In this document: positions 7,753 to 33,237 of the stretch, one piece after another
Layout: the number at the start of each line of letters is the position of its first letter
Numbering within the stretch: position 1 is the stretch's first letter
Assembly: GCA_021442595.1 (NCBI GenBank)
Contig: JABUST010000045.1
Span: 1-33,322 of the forward strand
Source of the DNA: Lachnospiraceae bacterium
GTDB lineage: Bacteria > Bacillota > Clostridia > Lachnospirales > Bianqueaceae
Length of the DNA stretch: 33,322 nucleotides
Direction of reading: 5' to 3'
Made by a program: the position numbers and the translations under genes
Notes under the pieces: model-generated
Seen by the model: the letters and a program-made list of their open reading frames with translations, nothing else
Databases searched by the model: none
Told to the model about the DNA's origin: nothing

Positions 7753-9357
7753 ATGTCTGATACAGTTTTATCACTGCAGGACAGAGAGGAAATAGAGAAG
7801 CGAAGGACCTTCGCCATCATTTCCCATCCCGATGCAGGTAAGACCACCCTCACCGAGAAGCTGCTTCTGTACGGAGGCGCCATCGTAGAGGCCGGTATGG
7901 TCAAAGGTAAGAAGAATATGCGCCATGCAGTCTCTGACTGGATGGAGATCGAAAAGCAGAGAGGAATCTCCGTGACTTCCTCTGTCATGCAGTTCCGCTA
8001 CGACGGCTTCTGCATCAACATCCTGGATACCCCGGGACACCAGGATTTCTCCGAGGATACCTACCGTACCCTGATGGCAGCGGATTCCGCTGTCATGGTG
8101 ATCGACGGCTCCAAGGGTGTGGAGGCTCAGACCCGAAAGCTGTTCAAGGTCTGCCGCATGCGTGGCATTCCTATTTTTACCTTCATTAATAAGATGGACC
8201 GGGAAGCCAAGGACAGCTTTGATCTCATGAGTGAGATCGAAACAGAGCTGGGCATCGAGACCTGTCCCATTAACTGGCCCATCGGTTCCGGAAAGCGGTT
8301 CCAGGGCGTATATGACAGAGAAAAGCAGCGCATGCTGAAGTTCGCAGCTACGGGAGGAGCCCATGAAGTGGCCTCTGTGGAGATGGCTCTGGACGATCCC
8401 GGTCTGGGAGACCTGATCGGAGAAGAGGCCAGAGATCAGTTGCTGGAGGAGATGGAGCTTCTGGACGGAGCCGGGCATCCTCTGGATCTGGACATGGTCA
8501 GAAAGGGAGAGCTGTCTCCCGTGTTCTTTGGATCTGCCCTGACCAACTTCGGTGTGGAGCCTTTCCTGGAGGAGTTCCTGCGCATGACCACATCCCCCCT
8601 GCCCAGACAGTGCGTGGAAGGGGTGGTGGAGCCTGCAAGCGCTGATTTTTCCGCCTTTGTATTTAAGATCCAGGCCAATATGAACCGGGCCCACCGGGAC
8701 AGAGTGGCCTTTATGCGCATCTGCAGTGGCGTCTTTGAAAAGGGCATGGAGGTCTACCATGTGCAGCAGGGCAAGAAGATCAAGATCTCCCAGCCAACTC
8801 AGCTTATGGCTCAGGACCGCAGCATCGTGGACAAGGCCTGGGCCGGGGACATCATCAGTGTCTTCGATCCCGGTATCTTCTCCATCGGCGATACCATCTG
8901 TTCTTCCTCCAACCGGGTGAAGTTTGAGGGCATCCCCACCTTCGCTCCGGAGCATTTCTGCCGTCTCCGCCAGGTTGATACCCTGAAGCGCAAGCAGTTT
9001 ATCAAAGGTACCACGGAGATCGCCCAGGAGGGCGCCATCCAGATATTCGTGGAGCCCAACAAGGGTATGGAGGAAGTCATTGTGGGGGTGGTGGGCACCC
9101 TGCAGTTCGATGTGCTGACTCACCGTCTGGTGAACGAGTACAACATTGAGACCCGCATGGAGTCTCTCCCCTATGAGCACATCCGATGGGTGGAGAACAA
9201 GGACCTGGATATGTCCGCTCTAACCCTTACATCCGATACTAAGGTGGTTCAGGATATGAAGGGCAACTATCTGCTGCTGTTTGCCGATGAGTGGAACATC
9301 GACTGGGCCCTGTCTCATAACAAAGGATTGAAGCTGGCTGAGTTCAGCCGGAACTGA
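7753..9357 (+). CDS. prfC: Peptide chain release factor 3 (RF3)
   Basis: 534 aa translational GTPase; [33 protein letters not shown]...[23 protein letters not shown]-type RF3 signature, [14 protein letters not shown]. Confidence 0.97.
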
Positions 9358-25134: not shown

Positions 25135-25839
25135 ATGCCGATAGGAATCATTACGGATGTGTGCGCTACCTTTGTGGGTTCCGTGCTGGGTATTTTGATT
25201 GGAAAGAAGCTGCCGGATTATTTGAAGACAGCCTTGAATAACATTCTGGGTATGGCCGCCATCACCATGGGCGTCGTGCTGATCATGAGACAGCATGCCC
25301 TATCCGCAGTGGTGCTTTCCGCAATTCTGGGATGCATCACCGGTGAGGTGCTGAAGCTGGAGACCGTCATTAACAAGGGTGTCAGCAAGGTTACGGCGAA
25401 GCTCATGAAGGGCCAGCAGACCGACGAGAATTATCTCATTCAGGTCAGCGCTGTGGTGGTGCTGTTCTGCTTCGGAGGTACCGGCTGGTACGGTGCACTG
25501 AACGAAGGTATCACCGGAGATTCCGGCATCCTGATCACCAAGTCCATACTGGATCTGGTGACCGCCACCATCTTCGGTTCCATTCTGGGCAAGATCGTTC
25601 CCGCCCTGTGCGTGCCTCAGGCTCTGGTATATGCCATTCTGTTCCTGGTTTCCGGGCTGGTGAAAACTCTGATCACCCCGGAGATGATTTCCGACTTTTC
25701 TGCTGTGGGAGGCATCATCACCCTCTGCGCAGGACTGCGGCTCAGCGGCATCAAGAAGGATATTAAGGTCCTGAACCTTTTGCCGGGTCTGATCATCGCC
25801 TTCTTCATCTCGGCTCTCTGGACAGCCGTCATAGGATAA
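25135..25839 (+). CDS. DUF554-family membrane protein
   Basis: 234 aa; GIITDVCATFVGSVLGILIGKKLPDYLKTALNNILGMAAITMGV, characteristic of DUF554. Confidence 0.92.
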   Translation: MPIGIITDVCATFVGSVLGILIGKKLPDYLKTALNNILGMAAITMGVVLIMRQHALSAVVLSAILGCITGEVLKLETVINKGVSKVTAKLMKGQQTDENYLIQVSAVVVLFCFGGTGWYGALNEGITGDSGILITKSILDLVTATIFGSILGKIVPALCVPQALVYAILFLVSGLVKTLITPEMISDFSAVGGIITLCAGLRLSGIKKDIKVLNLLPGLIIAFFISALWTAVIG

Positions 25840-25915: not shown

Positions 25916-25944
25916 TTTATAGACAGCCTCTCCTGTGCTATAAT
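25916..25944 (+). promoter_or_regulatory. Putative sigma-A-type promoter
   Basis: TTTATA-N17-TATAAT (perfect -10 at 25939-25944; -35 is 4/6). Confidence 0.5.
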
Positions 25945-25991
25945 CGGTGCATTATGTGCTGATTACAGTCACAGAGGAGGCTGTTTATATT

Positions 25992-28820
25992 TTGGAACGA
26001 ATCACGGGAACCGGTGCAAAGGCGCCTCTTTGCGCTGCTTTACTTGCCCATGTGGATGCGGGCAAAACCACCTTGTCGGAAGCCATGCTGTTCAGGTCCG
26101 GCAGGATCCGGAAGCTGGGCAGAGTGGATCACCGGGATTCCTTCCTGGACCAGGATGTCCAGGAAAGGGAGCGGGGCATCACCATCTACTCCAAGCAGGC
26201 TCGCCTGTCTCTTCCGGGAACGGAGATTACCCTGCTGGACACTCCGGGGCATGTGGACTTTTCCACGGAGATGGAGCGCACTCTGCAGGTGCTGGATTAT
26301 GCCGTACTCCTCATCAGCGGGTCTGACGGGGTCCAGAGCCACACCCGGACTCTTTGGAGGCTTCTTAACCGGTACCGGGTCCCTGCCTTTATATTCATAA
26401 ACAAGATGGATCTGGGACAGCGCTCCCGTGAGGAACTGCTGGAGGAGCTGCAGAAGGAGCTTTCCCCCGGCTGCATCGATTTTACGGAGGGCTATGAAGC
26501 TGCCACAGAAGATATTGCCGCCCTGGATGATGGGCTGATCGAAGAATTTCTGAATAAAGGAACTATTGAAAAGCAAAGTGTTAAAGAGCTTATTTCTCAG
26601 AGAAAACTGTATCCCTGCTATTTTGGTTCTGCCCTGAAGGTCCGGGGGGTAGACCGCCTCATGACCGATTTGGACGAACTCACTTTGAGAAAGCTGTATC
26701 CCCATGAGTTCGGAGCCAAGGTGTATAAAGTGGGGCATGATCCCAACGGAGAAAAGATCACCTTTTTGAAAATCACCGGCGGAACCCTCCGGGTCAGAGA
26801 CCTTGTGCGCTGTGGCTCCGGAGAGGATGCTAAAGAGAGCAAGGTCACTCAGATCCGCTTCTATTCCGGCGGGAAATATACCACCGCAGACCAGGCCCGT
26901 GCCGGAGACGTCTGCGCAGTTACCGGACTGGCCGATACCTATCCCTCCCAGGGATTGGGAGAGGAGCTGGATTCCGATGCCCCTCTTCTGGACAGCTTCC
27001 TGACCTATGAAGTGATTCCCGAGGACGGAACGGACAGTCACACCCTATACGGTTATCTGAAGACCCTGGAGGAGGAGGATCCCCAGCTCCATGTGCTGCG
27101 GACAGAGCAGCCCTCGGCTCTCCATGTGCAGCTCATGGGAGAAGTGCAGCTGGAGGTGCTGAAGCGGCTGATGAAGGACCGTTTCGGCGCGGGGATCGAA
27201 TTCGGTCCCGGCCACATCGTATACCGGGAGACCATCCTGGCCCCGGTGGAAGGGGTGGGGCATTACGAGCCACTGCGTCATTATGCGGAGGTACATCTCC
27301 TCATGGAGCCCCTGGAGAGAGGCGCCGGTATCCGCATTGGCTCCAACCTGAGCACAGATAAGCTGAGTCGACCCTTCCAGCATCTGGTGCTGACCCATCT
27401 CACGGAGAAGGTCTTTCGGGGAAAGCTGACAGGAGCTCCCATTACAGATATGAAGATCACTCTGGTGGGGGGCGCCGCCTCCGTTAAGCATACCGTGGGA
27501 GGAGACTTTCGCCAGGCTACCTACAGGGCTGTGCGCCAGGGTCTTATGGAAGCCCGCTGCATGCTGCTGGAGCCCTGGTATGATTTTGAACTGACAGTGC
27601 CCGCTGCTGCAGTAGGACGGGCCCTCAGCGACCTTCCCCAGCTTTCCGCTGTGTTTGAAAGCCCGGAGACAGATGGCAGAATGGCCCTCATTCGGGGTTA
27701 TGCCCCTGTGGCCTGCCTTCAGGGCTATGCTCTGCAGGTCACATCTTACACCAAGGGAGAGGGAAGCCTGGTCTGCATTCCCCGGGGCTATGCTCCCTGC
27801 CACAATGAAGATGAAGTGGTGAACGGAGCCGCCTATGACCCGGCGGCGGATCTGGAGAATTCTCCGGATTCCATTTTCTGTGCCCACGGAGCCGGTTTCC
27901 AGGTCCCCTGGTATCTGGTGCCCTCCTACATGCATCTGGAGACGGAGTACAGCTATCTCCACACTGTCCGACGCACTCCCGTCAAACGGCCGGGCGATGA
28001 TGACCCGGATCTCGGTCAGGACGGGTTTGATTCAGAGTCCGGGGAGACGGGGAAGGCCATTGACAGAAAATTTGCTGCCAGAGAGAGTAAGGGCTACGGA
28101 GGCACGCCGGCAGAGGATAAGGAGCTCATGGCCATCTTCGAGCGGACCTACGGAAAGACTAAAGAGAAGGATTTTGAGAGAGTCCGGAAGACCGGACAGC
28201 CCAGGCAGAAGGAGACAGACTCTTCCGGACAGGCCGGCCCGCTTGCGGAAGGATCATCCGGAGAAGCATCTTTTGATAAGACGGAAAAGAGAAAGCACCG
28301 GGAGATCCCTCCTTATAAAAAGAAGGAATATCTGCTGGTGGACGGCTACAATGTGATCTTCAGCTGGCCCTTCCTCAAGGAGCAGGCCTCCGTGAGCATG
28401 GATCTGGCCCGGCGCAGACTCATGGATCTTCTGTGCGAGTATCAGAGCATGCAGGATCTGACGGTGATTCTGGTCTTCGATGCCTACAATGTAGAGAGGG
28501 ACACGGAAGATATCTATCAATACCATAATATCTATGTGGTATTTACCCGGCAGGCGGAGACCGCCGATACCTACATCGAGCGCACCACTTATGACATGGA
28601 TAGGAAATATACCACAAGGGTGGTTTCCTCCGACGGGGCGGAGCAGGTCATCGTGCTGGGCCATGGGGCTCTGCGGGTCTCCTCCCGGGAGTTTGAGAGC
28701 GAGGTCATGCAGGTCCATGAGCGTTTTCAGGATTCACTGGATCGGTGGAACCGGCAGGAAAAGAGCAGGCTTACCCAGACACCCATGGTGAAGCTGGCAG
28801 AGAAAAAAGAAGAAACTTGA
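25992..28820 (+). CDS. TetM/TetO-like ribosomal translation GTPase fused to a C-terminal NYN (Rae1/YacP-like) ribonuclease domain
   Basis: The ORF track opens at GTG 25947; TTG 25992 downstream of GAGGAGG is the more likely start. N-terminus: LLAHVDAGKTTLSEAMLF, DTPGHVDFSTEMERTL, NKMD. C-terminus from about 28325: EYLLVDGYNVIFSWPFL...VILVFDAYNVERDT...VVFTRQAETADTYIERTTYDM...VVSSDGAEQVIVLGHGALRVSSREF. Confidence 0.9.
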   Translation: MERITGTGAKAPLCAALLAHVDAGKTTLSEAMLFRSGRIRKLGRVDHRDSFLDQDVQERERGITIYSKQARLSLPGTEITLLDTPGHVDFSTEMERTLQVLDYAVLLISGSDGVQSHTRTLWRLLNRYRVPAFIFINKMDLGQRSREELLEELQKELSPGCIDFTEGYEAATEDIAALDDGLIEEFLNKGTIEKQSVKELISQRKLYPCYFGSALKVRGVDRLMTDLDELTLRKLYPHEFGAKVYKVGHDPNGEKITFLKITGGTLRVRDLVRCGSGEDAKESKVTQIRFYSGGKYTTADQARAGDVCAVTGLADTYPSQGLGEELDSDAPLLDSFLTYEVIPEDGTDSHTLYGYLKTLEEEDPQLHVLRTEQPSALHVQLMGEVQLEVLKRLMKDRFGAGIEFGPGHIVYRETILAPVEGVGHYEPLRHYAEVHLLMEPLERGAGIRIGSNLSTDKLSRPFQHLVLTHLTEKVFRGKLTGAPITDMKITLVGGAASVKHTVGGDFRQATYRAVRQGLMEARCMLLEPWYDFELTVPAAAVGRALSDLPQLSAVFESPETDGRMALIRGYAPVACLQGYALQVTSYTKGEGSLVCIPRGYAPCHNEDEVVNGAAYDPAADLENSPDSIFCAHGAGFQVPWYLVPSYMHLETEYSYLHTVRRTPVKRPGDDDPDLGQDGFDSESGETGKAIDRKFAARESKGYGGTPAEDKELMAIFERTYGKTKEKDFERVRKTGQPRQKETDSSGQAGPLAEGSSGEASFDKTEKRKHREIPPYKKKEYLLVDGYNVIFSWPFLKEQASVSMDLARRRLMDLLCEYQSMQDLTVILVFDAYNVERDTEDIYQYHNIYVVFTRQAETADTYIERTTYDMDRKYTTRVVSSDGAEQVIVLGHGALRVSSREFESEVMQVHERFQDSLDRWNRQEKSRLTQTPMVKLAEKKEET

Positions 28821-28898: not shown

Positions 28899-31361
28899 AT
28901 GAAGGAACTTTGGTACAGGCAGCCCGCTTCCAGTGAAGTGGAGACCTTGCCTCTTGGCTGCGGCTCTCTGGGAGCCATGGTGTGGGGAGATCCTGTTGAT
29001 GAGCGAATCGCACTGAATCACGAGCTGCTCTGGTCAGGCACCGGAAGTACGGATCCTAAGGAATCCCGGAATCTGTCGGAGGAGCTTCGGACCGTCAGGA
29101 GCCTGCTCCGGGACGAGGTTTACCGGGAGGCGGAGCATCTTCTGGAACAGCATTTTCTGGGAGAATACACGGAGAGCTATATGCCTGCCGGCGACCTCAG
29201 GATCCGGCTTCTCTCCGCGGAAGGGGAGTACGGGACCTATCGCAGGTCTCTGGATCTGGAAGAGGCCATAGCTTATGTGGACACAGATATTGCTTTGCCG
29301 GGGGGCAGGGAGACCCATCTGCACAGAGAGATGTTTACATCCTTCCCGGAGAAGACCTTCTTCCTCCGGCAGACCTCCACAGAAGCTGTGGACTGCAGCA
29401 TCACCCTGGAATCCCCGGAAAGGCTGCTAAACGTGATCCCTCTGGAAAACAGGGGCATGCAGTGGAAGCTGCAGCTTCCGGAGCATGTGGATCCCAGCTA
29501 TCTGGGACCTAAGGAGAATGCCATCCTCTGGGGAGACCGGGGCATTTGCTATACGGTCACAGCCCGGATTCTGCAGTGTGACGGATGGGCCCAGGGCACA
29601 TTGACGCCCTGTTATGACTTGATTCCCTTTTTCTTAACAAACGATAAGAACAGCGGTGCAGAGGATCTCCAAGAAGATTTAGAAGATTACACGCCGGAGG
29701 CAAGCCTCGAGATCAGGGGCGCCAAAGAGTGGGTCCTGGCTCTCTCCATTCAGGTGGAGGATCCTGCATCCCGGACAGAGGCTGATGCCTGCGTCGAGGG
29801 AAGATTGGATCCCTGCGAAGATGGCAGCGCTTCTGCCTGGGCCGGTAACAGTTTTGATTCTTGCCCAAAGGCCAATGCCGAGGACGGCGCCCATGTCCGT
29901 TCCTCCCTGGCTGTGGGTCCCGAGGCTTTCAAGGCCGGAGACATGCTCCAAATCGATTGGTCCTTTGATCAGCACAAGGAAGCTCATGTCCGGGACTACC
30001 GGGCTCTGTACGACCGGGCGGATCTGGAGCTTCCCTCCTGTAAGGATGATCTGCCCACAGATGAGCGGCTGAAGGACCCGGATCCCGGACTCTATGCCAT
30101 CTACTTCCAGTACGGCCGCTATCTGCTCATCGCTTCCTCCCGGGAAGGGGGACTTCCCGCCAATCTTCAGGGCATCTGGTCCTGGGAGATGCGGGCTCCC
30201 TGGAGCGCCAATTACACGGTGAACATCAACCTTCAAATGAATTACTGGCCCGCTCTGGTGTGCAACCTGGAGGAGTGTGACCGGGTCTACATTGACTTTA
30301 TTAAACGGATCTGCGAGAAGGGCCGAAAGACTGCGGCTGCCTTCGGGTGCCGTGGCTCCGCCTGCGGCCACAATTCCGACGGATGGGGCCACACCTATCC
30401 TGTGGGAGTGACCCGTGGGGAGGAGGCGGGGGAGCCTCACTGCCTCATGTGGGCCTATTACCTCATGGCCCAGGTGTGGATGGATCAGGAGGTGTGGAGA
30501 CGGTATGAGTATCATCCGGAACCTTCCTACCTGACGGAAACGGTGTACCCGCTGCTGAAGGCCTCGGTGGAATTTGTGCTGGATTATCTGCATTTGCAGG
30601 ACGGCTATTATGTGACCTCCCCGGCTTCCACCCCGGAGAATACCTTCCTGGATGAGGAGGGCTTCCGGGTCAGCGTGTCCTATGCAACCACCATGGACAT
30701 GACTTTGGTGAGGGAGCTCTTCGCCGAATTCCGCCGGACCGTCAGTGCTCTGGGAAAGGCCGGGGCCCCGGAGCTCATGAGGGAAGGGCTGCAGTACCTG
30801 GAGATGATGGACCGGGTGGAGCCTTTGCTGTATCCGGTACAATTTAATCCCGATGGCTCCGTCTGCGAGTGGTTCCGTCCCAGGTCAGAGGCGGAGAAGG
30901 GGCACCGCCATGTGTCCCACCTCTACGGTCTGTTTCCCTCGAATCTTTGGCGGGGCGATGCTGACATGCACCGAGCCGTGGCCAAGAGTCTGGAGAACCG
31001 CATGAAGGCAGGCAGCGGTCACACGGGCTGGAGTCTGGCCTGGATCACCAATCTTTACACCATCCTGGGCGATGCAGACGCAGTGCAGCGCTGTCTGGTT
31101 CAGATGCTGGAGAGGTCCACTTATCCTAATCTCTGGGACAAGCATCCTCCTTTTCAGATCGACGGAAACTTCGGTATGACGGCGGCCATTGCCCACATGC
31201 TGGTGAAGGAGCAGGAAGAGCCGGAGCTGCTGCCCTGTCTGCCCCCTGCCTGGCGGGATGGCTCTGTACGGGGACTGCGGCTTCCCGGAGGAAAGGAGAT
31301 CAGCTTCGCTTGGAAGGACGGGAAGGTCCTGAAGGACACGGTGAAGGTGGAAACCCAATAA
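28899..31361 (+). CDS. Glycoside hydrolase family 95 protein (alpha-L-fucosidase-like)
   Basis: 820 aa; MKELWYRQPASSEVETLPLGCGSLGAMVWGDPVDERIALNHELLWSGTG, GGLPANLQGIWSWEMRAPWSANYTVNINLQMNYWPA, HRHVSHLYGLFPSN, QIDGNFGMTAAIAHMLV. Confidence 0.95.
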   Translation: MKELWYRQPASSEVETLPLGCGSLGAMVWGDPVDERIALNHELLWSGTGSTDPKESRNLSEELRTVRSLLRDEVYREAEHLLEQHFLGEYTESYMPAGDLRIRLLSAEGEYGTYRRSLDLEEAIAYVDTDIALPGGRETHLHREMFTSFPEKTFFLRQTSTEAVDCSITLESPERLLNVIPLENRGMQWKLQLPEHVDPSYLGPKENAILWGDRGICYTVTARILQCDGWAQGTLTPCYDLIPFFLTNDKNSGAEDLQEDLEDYTPEASLEIRGAKEWVLALSIQVEDPASRTEADACVEGRLDPCEDGSASAWAGNSFDSCPKANAEDGAHVRSSLAVGPEAFKAGDMLQIDWSFDQHKEAHVRDYRALYDRADLELPSCKDDLPTDERLKDPDPGLYAIYFQYGRYLLIASSREGGLPANLQGIWSWEMRAPWSANYTVNINLQMNYWPALVCNLEECDRVYIDFIKRICEKGRKTAAAFGCRGSACGHNSDGWGHTYPVGVTRGEEAGEPHCLMWAYYLMAQVWMDQEVWRRYEYHPEPSYLTETVYPLLKASVEFVLDYLHLQDGYYVTSPASTPENTFLDEEGFRVSVSYATTMDMTLVRELFAEFRRTVSALGKAGAPELMREGLQYLEMMDRVEPLLYPVQFNPDGSVCEWFRPRSEAEKGHRHVSHLYGLFPSNLWRGDADMHRAVAKSLENRMKAGSGHTGWSLAWITNLYTILGDADAVQRCLVQMLERSTYPNLWDKHPPFQIDGNFGMTAAIAHMLVKEQEEPELLPCLPPAWRDGSVRGLRLPGGKEISFAWKDGKVLKDTVKVETQ

Positions 31362-31407: not shown

Positions 31408-33237
31408 TTATTGCCTGGCTTTGGATGCGGCGTAGTTGGCCTTGGCCCGCAGTCCGGCATCCAGAATGTCCTTGCGCATGCGGATGTTCTTGGGAGTGAC
31501 CTCCACCAGCTCATCGTCGGCGATGAACTCCAGGCACTCTTCCAGAGAGAGGACCTTGGGAGGCGTCAGGCGCAGAGCCTCGTCTGCAGCGGCGGAACGC
31601 ATGTTGGTGGCATGCTTTCTCTTGCACACATTGACGGGAATGTCCTCACCCCGGGAGCTTTCTCCTACGATCATGCCCTCGTACACCTCTGTGCCGGGGC
31701 CGATGAACAGGGCGCCTCGCTCCTGGGCAGCGTGAAGACCGTAGGCCACGGCTTCACCGGTCTCATGGGCAATGAGAGAGCCTCTGGAACGGTGAGAGAT
31801 CTCACCCTTGAAGGGCTTGAAGCTGTCAAAGATATGGTTGAGAACAGCGGTTCCTCTGGTCTCCGTCATGAGCTGGGAGCGGTATCCGATGAGACCTCTG
31901 GCGGGGATCAGGAACTCCACCCGGGTGTAGCCGCCCTGGGTGGGAGTCATGTTCAGCAGCTCTGCCTTTCGGGCAGCAGCACCTTCAATGAGGACCCCGG
32001 TGTACTCATCCGGCAGGTCTACAAAGAGGCTCTCGTAGGGCTCCCAGACCTGACCGTTGACGATCTTGGTAATGACCTTGGGAGAGGTGACGGCAAACTC
32101 ATAACCGCCCCGGCGCATCTCCTCAATGAGCACGGAAAGGTGCAGCTCCCCGCGGCCGGATACCACGAAGGAGTCGGGAGAGTCGGTCTCTTCCACACGA
32201 AGAGAAATGTTGGATTCCAGTTCACGGAACAGACGGTCTCTCAGGTGGCGGGAGGTTACATATTCACCATCCTTGCCGGCAAAGGGACTCTTGTTGACGG
32301 TGAAGGTCATGGACAGAACGGGCTCGTCGATAGCCACAAAGGGCAGAGGCTCAATGTTCTGAGGGTCACAGACGGTCTCACCGATGTTAATGTCCTTCAG
32401 ACCGCTGATGGCAACGATCTCACCGGCAGAAGCGCCTTCTACAGGTACTCTTGCCATGTTCCGGAACACGTAGAGATTGCTGATGCGGATACCGGAGGTG
32501 GTGCCGTCCTTCCGGCAGACCACGCAGTTGTCACCGACTTTGATGGCGCCTCTGTCGATACGTCCCACGGCGATACGGCCGGTATAAGCATCGTAGTCGA
32601 TATTGGAAACAAGAAGCTGAAGGTCCCCCTCCGGATCTCCCACAGGAGCCGGGATGGCATCTATGATGGTGCGGAACAGAGGTTTCATGTCGGTTCCGGG
32701 GACGGAGGCATCCAGAGATGCCCAGCCTTCACGGGCGGAGCAGAATACAACGGGGGAATCCAGCTGTTCGTCGGAGGCACCCAGATCCAGCAGCAGCTCC
32801 AGTACCTCGTCCACTACCTCCGTGGGGCGGCCGTTGGGTCTGTCCACCTTATTGATCACGATGACGGGAGTCAGGTTAAGATCCAGAGCCTTCTTCAGAA
32901 CGAAGCGGGTCTGGGGCATGCAGCCCTCATAGGCATCCACCACCAGGAGAACGCCGTTGGCCATTTCCAGGGCGCGTTCTACCTCGCCGCCGAAGTCGGC
33001 ATGGCCGGGGGTGTCCAGAATATTGATCTTATAATCCTCATAGGTCAGAGAGGTGTTCTTGGCCAGGATGGTGATGCCTCTCTCTCTTTCCAGATCGCCG
33101 GAGTCCATGACACGCTCCACCACTTCCTGATTGTCCCGGAAAATGCCGCTCTGGTGCAGCAGGGCATCCACCAGGGTGGTCTTGCCGTGGTCAACGTGAG
33201 CGATAATGGCGATATTTCTGATGTCTTCGCGAACCAT
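31408..33237 (-). CDS. typA: GTP-binding protein TypA/BipA
   Basis: 609 aa; NIAIIAHVDHGKTTLVDALLHQSGIFRDNQ, DSGDLERERGITILAKNTS, DTPGHADFGGEVER, PARGLIGYRSQLMTETRG. Confidence 0.98.
   Translation of the reverse strand: MVREDIRNIAIIAHVDHGKTTLVDALLHQSGIFRDNQEVVERVMDSGDLERERGITILAKNTSLTYEDYKINILDTPGHADFGGEVERALEMANGVLLVVDAYEGCMPQTRFVLKKALDLNLTPVIVINKVDRPNGRPTEVVDEVLELLLDLGASDEQLDSPVVFCSAREGWASLDASVPGTDMKPLFRTIIDAIPAPVGDPEGDLQLLVSNIDYDAYTGRIAVGRIDRGAIKVGDNCVVCRKDGTTSGIRISNLYVFRNMARVPVEGASAGEIVAISGLKDINIGETVCDPQNIEPLPFVAIDEPVLSMTFTVNKSPFAGKDGEYVTSRHLRDRLFRELESNISLRVEETDSPDSFVVSGRGELHLSVLIEEMRRGGYEFAVTSPKVITKIVNGQVWEPYESLFVDLPDEYTGVLIEGAAARKAELLNMTPTQGGYTRVEFLIPARGLIGYRSQLMTETRGTAVLNHIFDSFKPFKGEISHRSRGSLIAHETGEAVAYGLHAAQERGALFIGPGTEVYEGMIVGESSRGEDIPVNVCKRKHATNMRSAAADEALRLTPPKVLSLEECLEFIADDELVEVTPKNIRMRKDILDAGLRAKANYAASKARQ

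Follow-up and report, generated by a model that had tools for sequence, protein, structure and literature searches.

What a translational GTPase gains from carrying an RNA-cutting domain on its tail is the question raised by one gene in the window analysed here, the whole of a 33,322-nucleotide stretch from a Lachnospiraceae bacterium (contig JABUST010000045.1). An open frame with no stop inside (25947..28820, + strand) encloses the gene, whose probable start is the TTG at 25992. As this TTG is preceded, 11 bases upstream, by the Shine-Dalgarno-like AGAGGAGG at 25973-25980, the start given in a preliminary description of the locus is right, and its single unbroken reading frame from 25992 to 28820 holds. 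The gene and its parts are laid out as follows.

25992..28820, + strand: GTPase-Rae1 (NYN_YacP) fusion gene, 942 aa from the TTG start
26037..26681, + strand: G domain (Pfam, motifs), with G1 AHVDAGKTT, G2 RGIT, G3 DTPGH and G4 NKMD intact
26715..27206, + strand: EF-G-type domains II and III (Pfam)
27213..27554, + strand: EF-G-type domain IV (Pfam), which reaches the decoding centre in TetM and EF-G
27258..27293, + strand: domain IV loop 1, with the family signature GHYEPLRHYAEV, nearly invariant in fused and unfused proteins
27468..27530, + strand: domain IV loop 3, (G)xAxxKHTxGGDFRQATYRA, in place of TetM YYSPVSTPADFR
27564..27809, + strand: EF-G-type domain V (Pfam)
27810..27941, + strand: conserved C-terminal extension of the GTPase, SIFCAHGAGFxVPW..YMH, where typical unfused relatives stop
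27942..28325, + strand: variable linker, mostly at pLDDT <50
28116..28154, + strand: short conserved linker motif DKELMAIFERTYG, a predicted helix, in 75/80 fused proteins
28326..28778, + strand: NYN_YacP (Rae1-type) endoribonuclease domain, with equivalents of Rae1 D7, D53, D81 and D104

Pfam recognises GTP_EFTU (E 4e-48), EF-G domains II, III, IV and V, and NYN_YacP in this one protein, and an AlphaFold2 model based on 44 relatives (mean pLDDT 81) has both the GTPase and the NYN parts well folded, bearing out the N-terminal EF-G/TetM-type G motifs and the full C-terminal NYN domain that had been read from the sequence beforehand. Across fused proteins the linker, counted from the C-terminal motif of the GTPase to the NYN domain, is 83-148 residues long, variable and disordered; in the model two of its stretches (669-703 and 729-776 in 942-aa numbering) fall at pLDDT <50, and the short helix between them is the conserved motif DKELxAIFERTYG. 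The preliminary description was correct in calling the linker charged, and it is disordered as well, but the limits of about 28000-28310 given for it have to be moved to a span from about 27942 to 28325.

The C-terminal domain matches NYN_YacP (PF05991) at residues 796-943 (E 3.7e-43; 147.8 bits vs a cut-off of 24.6; positions 1-150 of 166), and its sole match by sequence in the PDB is B. subtilis YacP/Rae1 (5mq8/5mq9; E 2.7e-22), in agreement with the proposed NYN/YacP assignment. The catalytic acids are likewise unsubstituted. Rae1 positions D7, D53, D81, E85 and D104 are identical in 37/37 diverse fused proteins, and the window protein also has D7, D53, D81 and D104. Since these acids are conserved, a dead nuclease can be rejected, as can a dead GTPase given the intact G motifs. 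In domain and catalytic acids the fusion is the same as Rae1/YacP of Bacillus subtilis (PDB 5mq8; PF05991), an A-site mRNA endonuclease (PMC12320835; PMC8266666); the latter, however, is free-standing and about 170 aa long, whereas here a translational GTPase carries it at its C-terminus.

The GTPase part has the hallmarks of the EF-G/EF2 translational GTPases, namely the G1-G4 motifs, including DTPGH, and domains II-V, and in Foldseek it aligns with EF-G structures at TM-scores of about 0.5-0.7 (target-normalised). It is not the housekeeping EF-G, scoring 269 against a cut-off of 659 on TIGR00484; the EF-G gene of the same genome adjoins that of EF-Tu on contig C3. Among named GTPases the Tet proteins come closest; the GTPase part shares with them the EF-G-like domains G and II-V (about 29% identity to Tet(M)). 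A tree made by a quick method, with only four Tet-type rows and with the genome’s own EF-G, RF3, TypA and LepA included, joins the family to the Tet sample as its sister. Unlike Tet(M)/Tet(O) (NF012153), the fusion falls below NCBI’s curated tet_protect cut-off (407 bits vs 775, with a Tet(M) control at 880), and it does not conserve the tetracycline-dislodging loop: Y506-Y507-S508-P509-V510 (YYSPV) of TetM, in which P509 is the residue overlapping tetracycline (PMC7456112), aligns with A-S-V-K-H in the window and with KHT family-wide. It has instead its own domain IV signature, consisting of two nearly invariant tips (GHxEPLRHYAEVHL and KHTxGGDFRxATxRA), a C-terminal extension (SVFCxHGAGFxVxW) and the added NYN domain, and it is chromosomal, fusions on plasmids being nearly absent (two records among 72,556 plasmids cover it). 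A few of the fused proteins, L105-L107, are divergent and have lost parts of the family signatures. The GTPase is a chromosomal clostridial family, sister to yet distinct from the tetracycline-protection proteins. Its initial label of “TetM-like” is therefore loosely right as to kinship and misses the domain IV tip that is the family’s own, while the absence of TetM’s contact loop supports the accompanying view that it serves something other than plain tetracycline resistance. A full-length relative in NCBI (e.g. WP_320690501.1, with 48% identity across 96% of the query) goes by “translation factor GTPase family protein”, a generic name only. A deeper-branching unfused relative (L099, genome G010), with the loop HHLEHTHGGDFRMATIRA, lies between the family and the Tet proteins.

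The fusion is widespread in clostridia. A search of GTDB genomes gave at least 573 candidate stretches that code for a relative; of the 80 loci kept, 79 hold the full-length fused frame, the other (L071) being interrupted by a contig end. It occurs in hundreds of independent clostridial genomes, single-contig ones among them, which excludes both chance and a misassembly of two genes, an outcome named beforehand as refuting. Within one order it has been retained by dozens of genera. In a survey of 245 genomes of the order, using a profile from domain IV to the extension, 127 have the GTPase family (two further genomes with only weak Tet-like matches were excluded from this count); 100 of these are fused or cut by a contig end and 27 unfused. 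The unfused genes that were read have the same domain IV tips and typically stop just past the extension. In a tree of the GTPase module (58 rows) the fused proteins form one clade (100/99) nested within an unfused grade, which makes the fusion the derived state, with a single origin among the proteins sampled; repeated independent fusions are unsupported. None of the fused-clade proteins sampled lacks the NYN domain. In a tree of the NYN domain only, whose alignment is too short for resolution, the fused domains are not one clade, and their monophyly is not rejected (AU p 0.4).

Whether fused genomes lack a stand-alone yacP had been proposed as a check, and usually they do. Within the order, stand-alone yacP typically lies in the ancestral order mrnC-rlmB-yacP-sigH (neighbours identified by Pfam), an arrangement shared with B. 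subtilis. The genome of the window has one YacP match, the fusion itself, and on its contig C30 rlmB adjoins sigH, with no space for yacP. This adjacency recurs in six other genomes (G025, G047, G209, G229, G240, G242), the mrnC-rlmB-sigH order being otherwise kept in all seven, and in the fused genome G017, which has a second YacP match elsewhere. Among the 99 fused genomes of the order with a detectable YacP, 95 have only one match, which was taken to lie in the fused frame where it fell below the limit for listing, whereas about 127 of the 145 other genomes have YacP outside any fusion (Fisher p 2e-43, uncorrected for relatedness). A phylum-wide draw gave a single YacP in 18/18 fused genomes and a stand-alone yacP in 3/3 unfused ones. 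Two genomes (G107 and G125) carry the fusion plus an intact stand-alone yacP at the old site, and G044, of the same genus, has an intact fusion and the following remnant.

L159 (genome G044), about 2400-2700, between rlmB and sigH: yacP pseudogene, interrupted by in-frame stops and shortened by an internal deletion

The double state of the first two genomes together with this pseudogene looks like replacement caught midway. It is thus well supported that the fusion has replaced stand-alone Rae1/yacP in these bacteria, standing in for the gene that lies between rlmB and sigH. The unfused GTPase, for its part, is always accompanied by a stand-alone yacP (30/30 genomes: 27/27 in the order, with a one-sided Fisher p of 0.019, not phylogenetically corrected, and 3/3 phylum-wide). 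Many genomes carry Rae1 without this GTPase, indicating that Rae1 is in general independent of it; the dependence is one-sided, as none of the 30 genomes with the unfused GTPase is without Rae1.

That yacP moved onto the tail of the GTPase in many gut-type clostridia and the free gene was lost suggests that both proteins act as one machine, not as a tetracycline resistance factor. We consider it probable that the fusion is this bacterium’s Rae1/YacP ribosome-associated endoribonuclease, tethered by a flexible linker to a distinct translational GTPase and cutting A-site mRNA. The replacement of yacP and the intact catalytic acids support the original idea of a ribosomal GTPase carrying a nuclease that acts in the A site. 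The model that follows, with its ribosome binding, A-site cleavage and succession of steps, draws on the biology of Rae1 and of TetM/EF-G, as does the putative delivery of the nuclease by the GTPase. TetM occupies the ribosomal A site via domain IV (PMC8161019; PMC7456112), and because a TetM-type GTPase and Rae1 cannot share that site simultaneously, we infer that the two parts act in sequence. In this model, the GTPase part would most likely bind, like EF-G and TetM, to stalled or paused ribosomes whose A site is free, would place its conserved domain IV tip in the decoding centre, and would clear or check the A site. GTP hydrolysis would then move the GTPase away, and the tethered NYN domain, after or during this departure, would enter and cut the A-site mRNA, with decay or rescue to follow. 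The long linker would permit such a succession, although the GTPase and the nuclease could also act at different sites or times. More tentatively, the fusion may be a one-polypeptide, GTP-driven cutter of A-site mRNA, with a GTPase that inspects stalled ribosomes and gives the tethered Rae1 nuclease licence to cut, in parallel to eukaryotic Hbs1/Dom34 plus an endonuclease. If so, Rae1 of other clostridia would have in the unfused GTPase a partner that has gone unrecognised.

The GTPase may, on the other hand, have a job of its own, for example as an EF-G-like rescue translocase, with the fusion fixing only stoichiometry or recruitment and the NYN domain riding along without GTP-coupled delivery. 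A linker that is long, variable and disordered does not require tight geometric coupling, and the unfused GTPases are complete without an NYN domain. However, conservation of DKELxAIFERTYG within that linker suggests a specific contact, and the unbroken retention of the NYN domain throughout the sampled fused clade also argues against a passenger, so that we think this rather unlikely. Still less likely, in our judgement, is a ribosome-biogenesis or rRNA-processing factor, with the GTPase acting on pre-ribosomes and the NYN domain trimming rRNA. Other EF-G-like GTPases have assembly roles, and the neighbours of ancestral yacP encode an RNase III-like protein (mrnC) and a SpoU methylase (rlmB). 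A part for NYN/YacP in rRNA/tRNA maturation was also formerly proposed (cited in PMC4342817). Yet Rae1 of B. subtilis is described as acting on mRNA in the A site (PMC12320835; PMC8266666), and the conserved domain IV tip would be expected, by analogy with TetM, at the decoding centre.

The published reading is different again. Atkinson 2015 noted, in one sentence, the gain of a YacP-like NYN domain by Tet proteins in ten species of clostridia and suggested an antibiotic-resistance mechanism (PMC4342817); on this reading the fusion would be a protection factor against tetracycline or another A-site drug, the nuclease adding a new resistance step. The nearest named GTPases are indeed Tet proteins, and the clade is sister to the Tet sample. 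The tet_protect score, the replacement of YYSPV, P509 included, the chromosomal setting, and the lack of a conserved neighbourhood for a fusion kept over dozens of genera nevertheless make this very improbable. The proteins in question have the same architecture and the window protein is a further member; they were filed under Tet, whereas we see the fusion replace Rae1 and belong to a GTPase family that exists unfused too. No functional study of the fusion was found in the openly accessible literature, the key Rae1 papers lying beyond that scope. The architecture was already known, and the Rae1-replacement reading is new relative to that literature, with earlier mention possible in the key Rae1 papers. 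On this reading, a large clostridial family moves out of the “tetracycline resistance-like” category and into core mRNA surveillance. A caution follows for resistome surveys of gut metagenomes, in which fusion genes should not be scored as resistance determinants. To our knowledge, the recruitment of Rae1 to particular ribosomes has not been explained so far; the family supplies a candidate partner GTPase.

Among related loci, seven of them unplaced, no conserved neighbour or operon partner of the fusion was found, which, with its near absence from plasmids, led us to reject a mobile resistance gene or part of a defence island. Directly 5' of the fusion gene lies a near-perfect 70-base inverted repeat (25919-25988; about -41 kcal/mol as RNA), its 3' arm holding the Shine-Dalgarno and its 5' half an extended -10 box, TGCTATAAT. 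The repeat could be an operator; it is single-copy in its own genome and was not found upstream of four relatives, three of which have -10-like boxes there. Other genes of the window are these, the DUF554 and glycoside hydrolase genes being the neighbours of the fusion.

7753-9357, + strand: release factor RF3
25135-25839, + strand: DUF554 membrane protein, unrelated to translation
28899-31361, + strand: glycoside hydrolase family 95 protein, unrelated to translation
31408-33237, - strand: TypA/BipA

The window thus holds three translational GTPases, RF3, the fusion and TypA/BipA, and TypA is a near neighbour of the fusion in a few related loci too.
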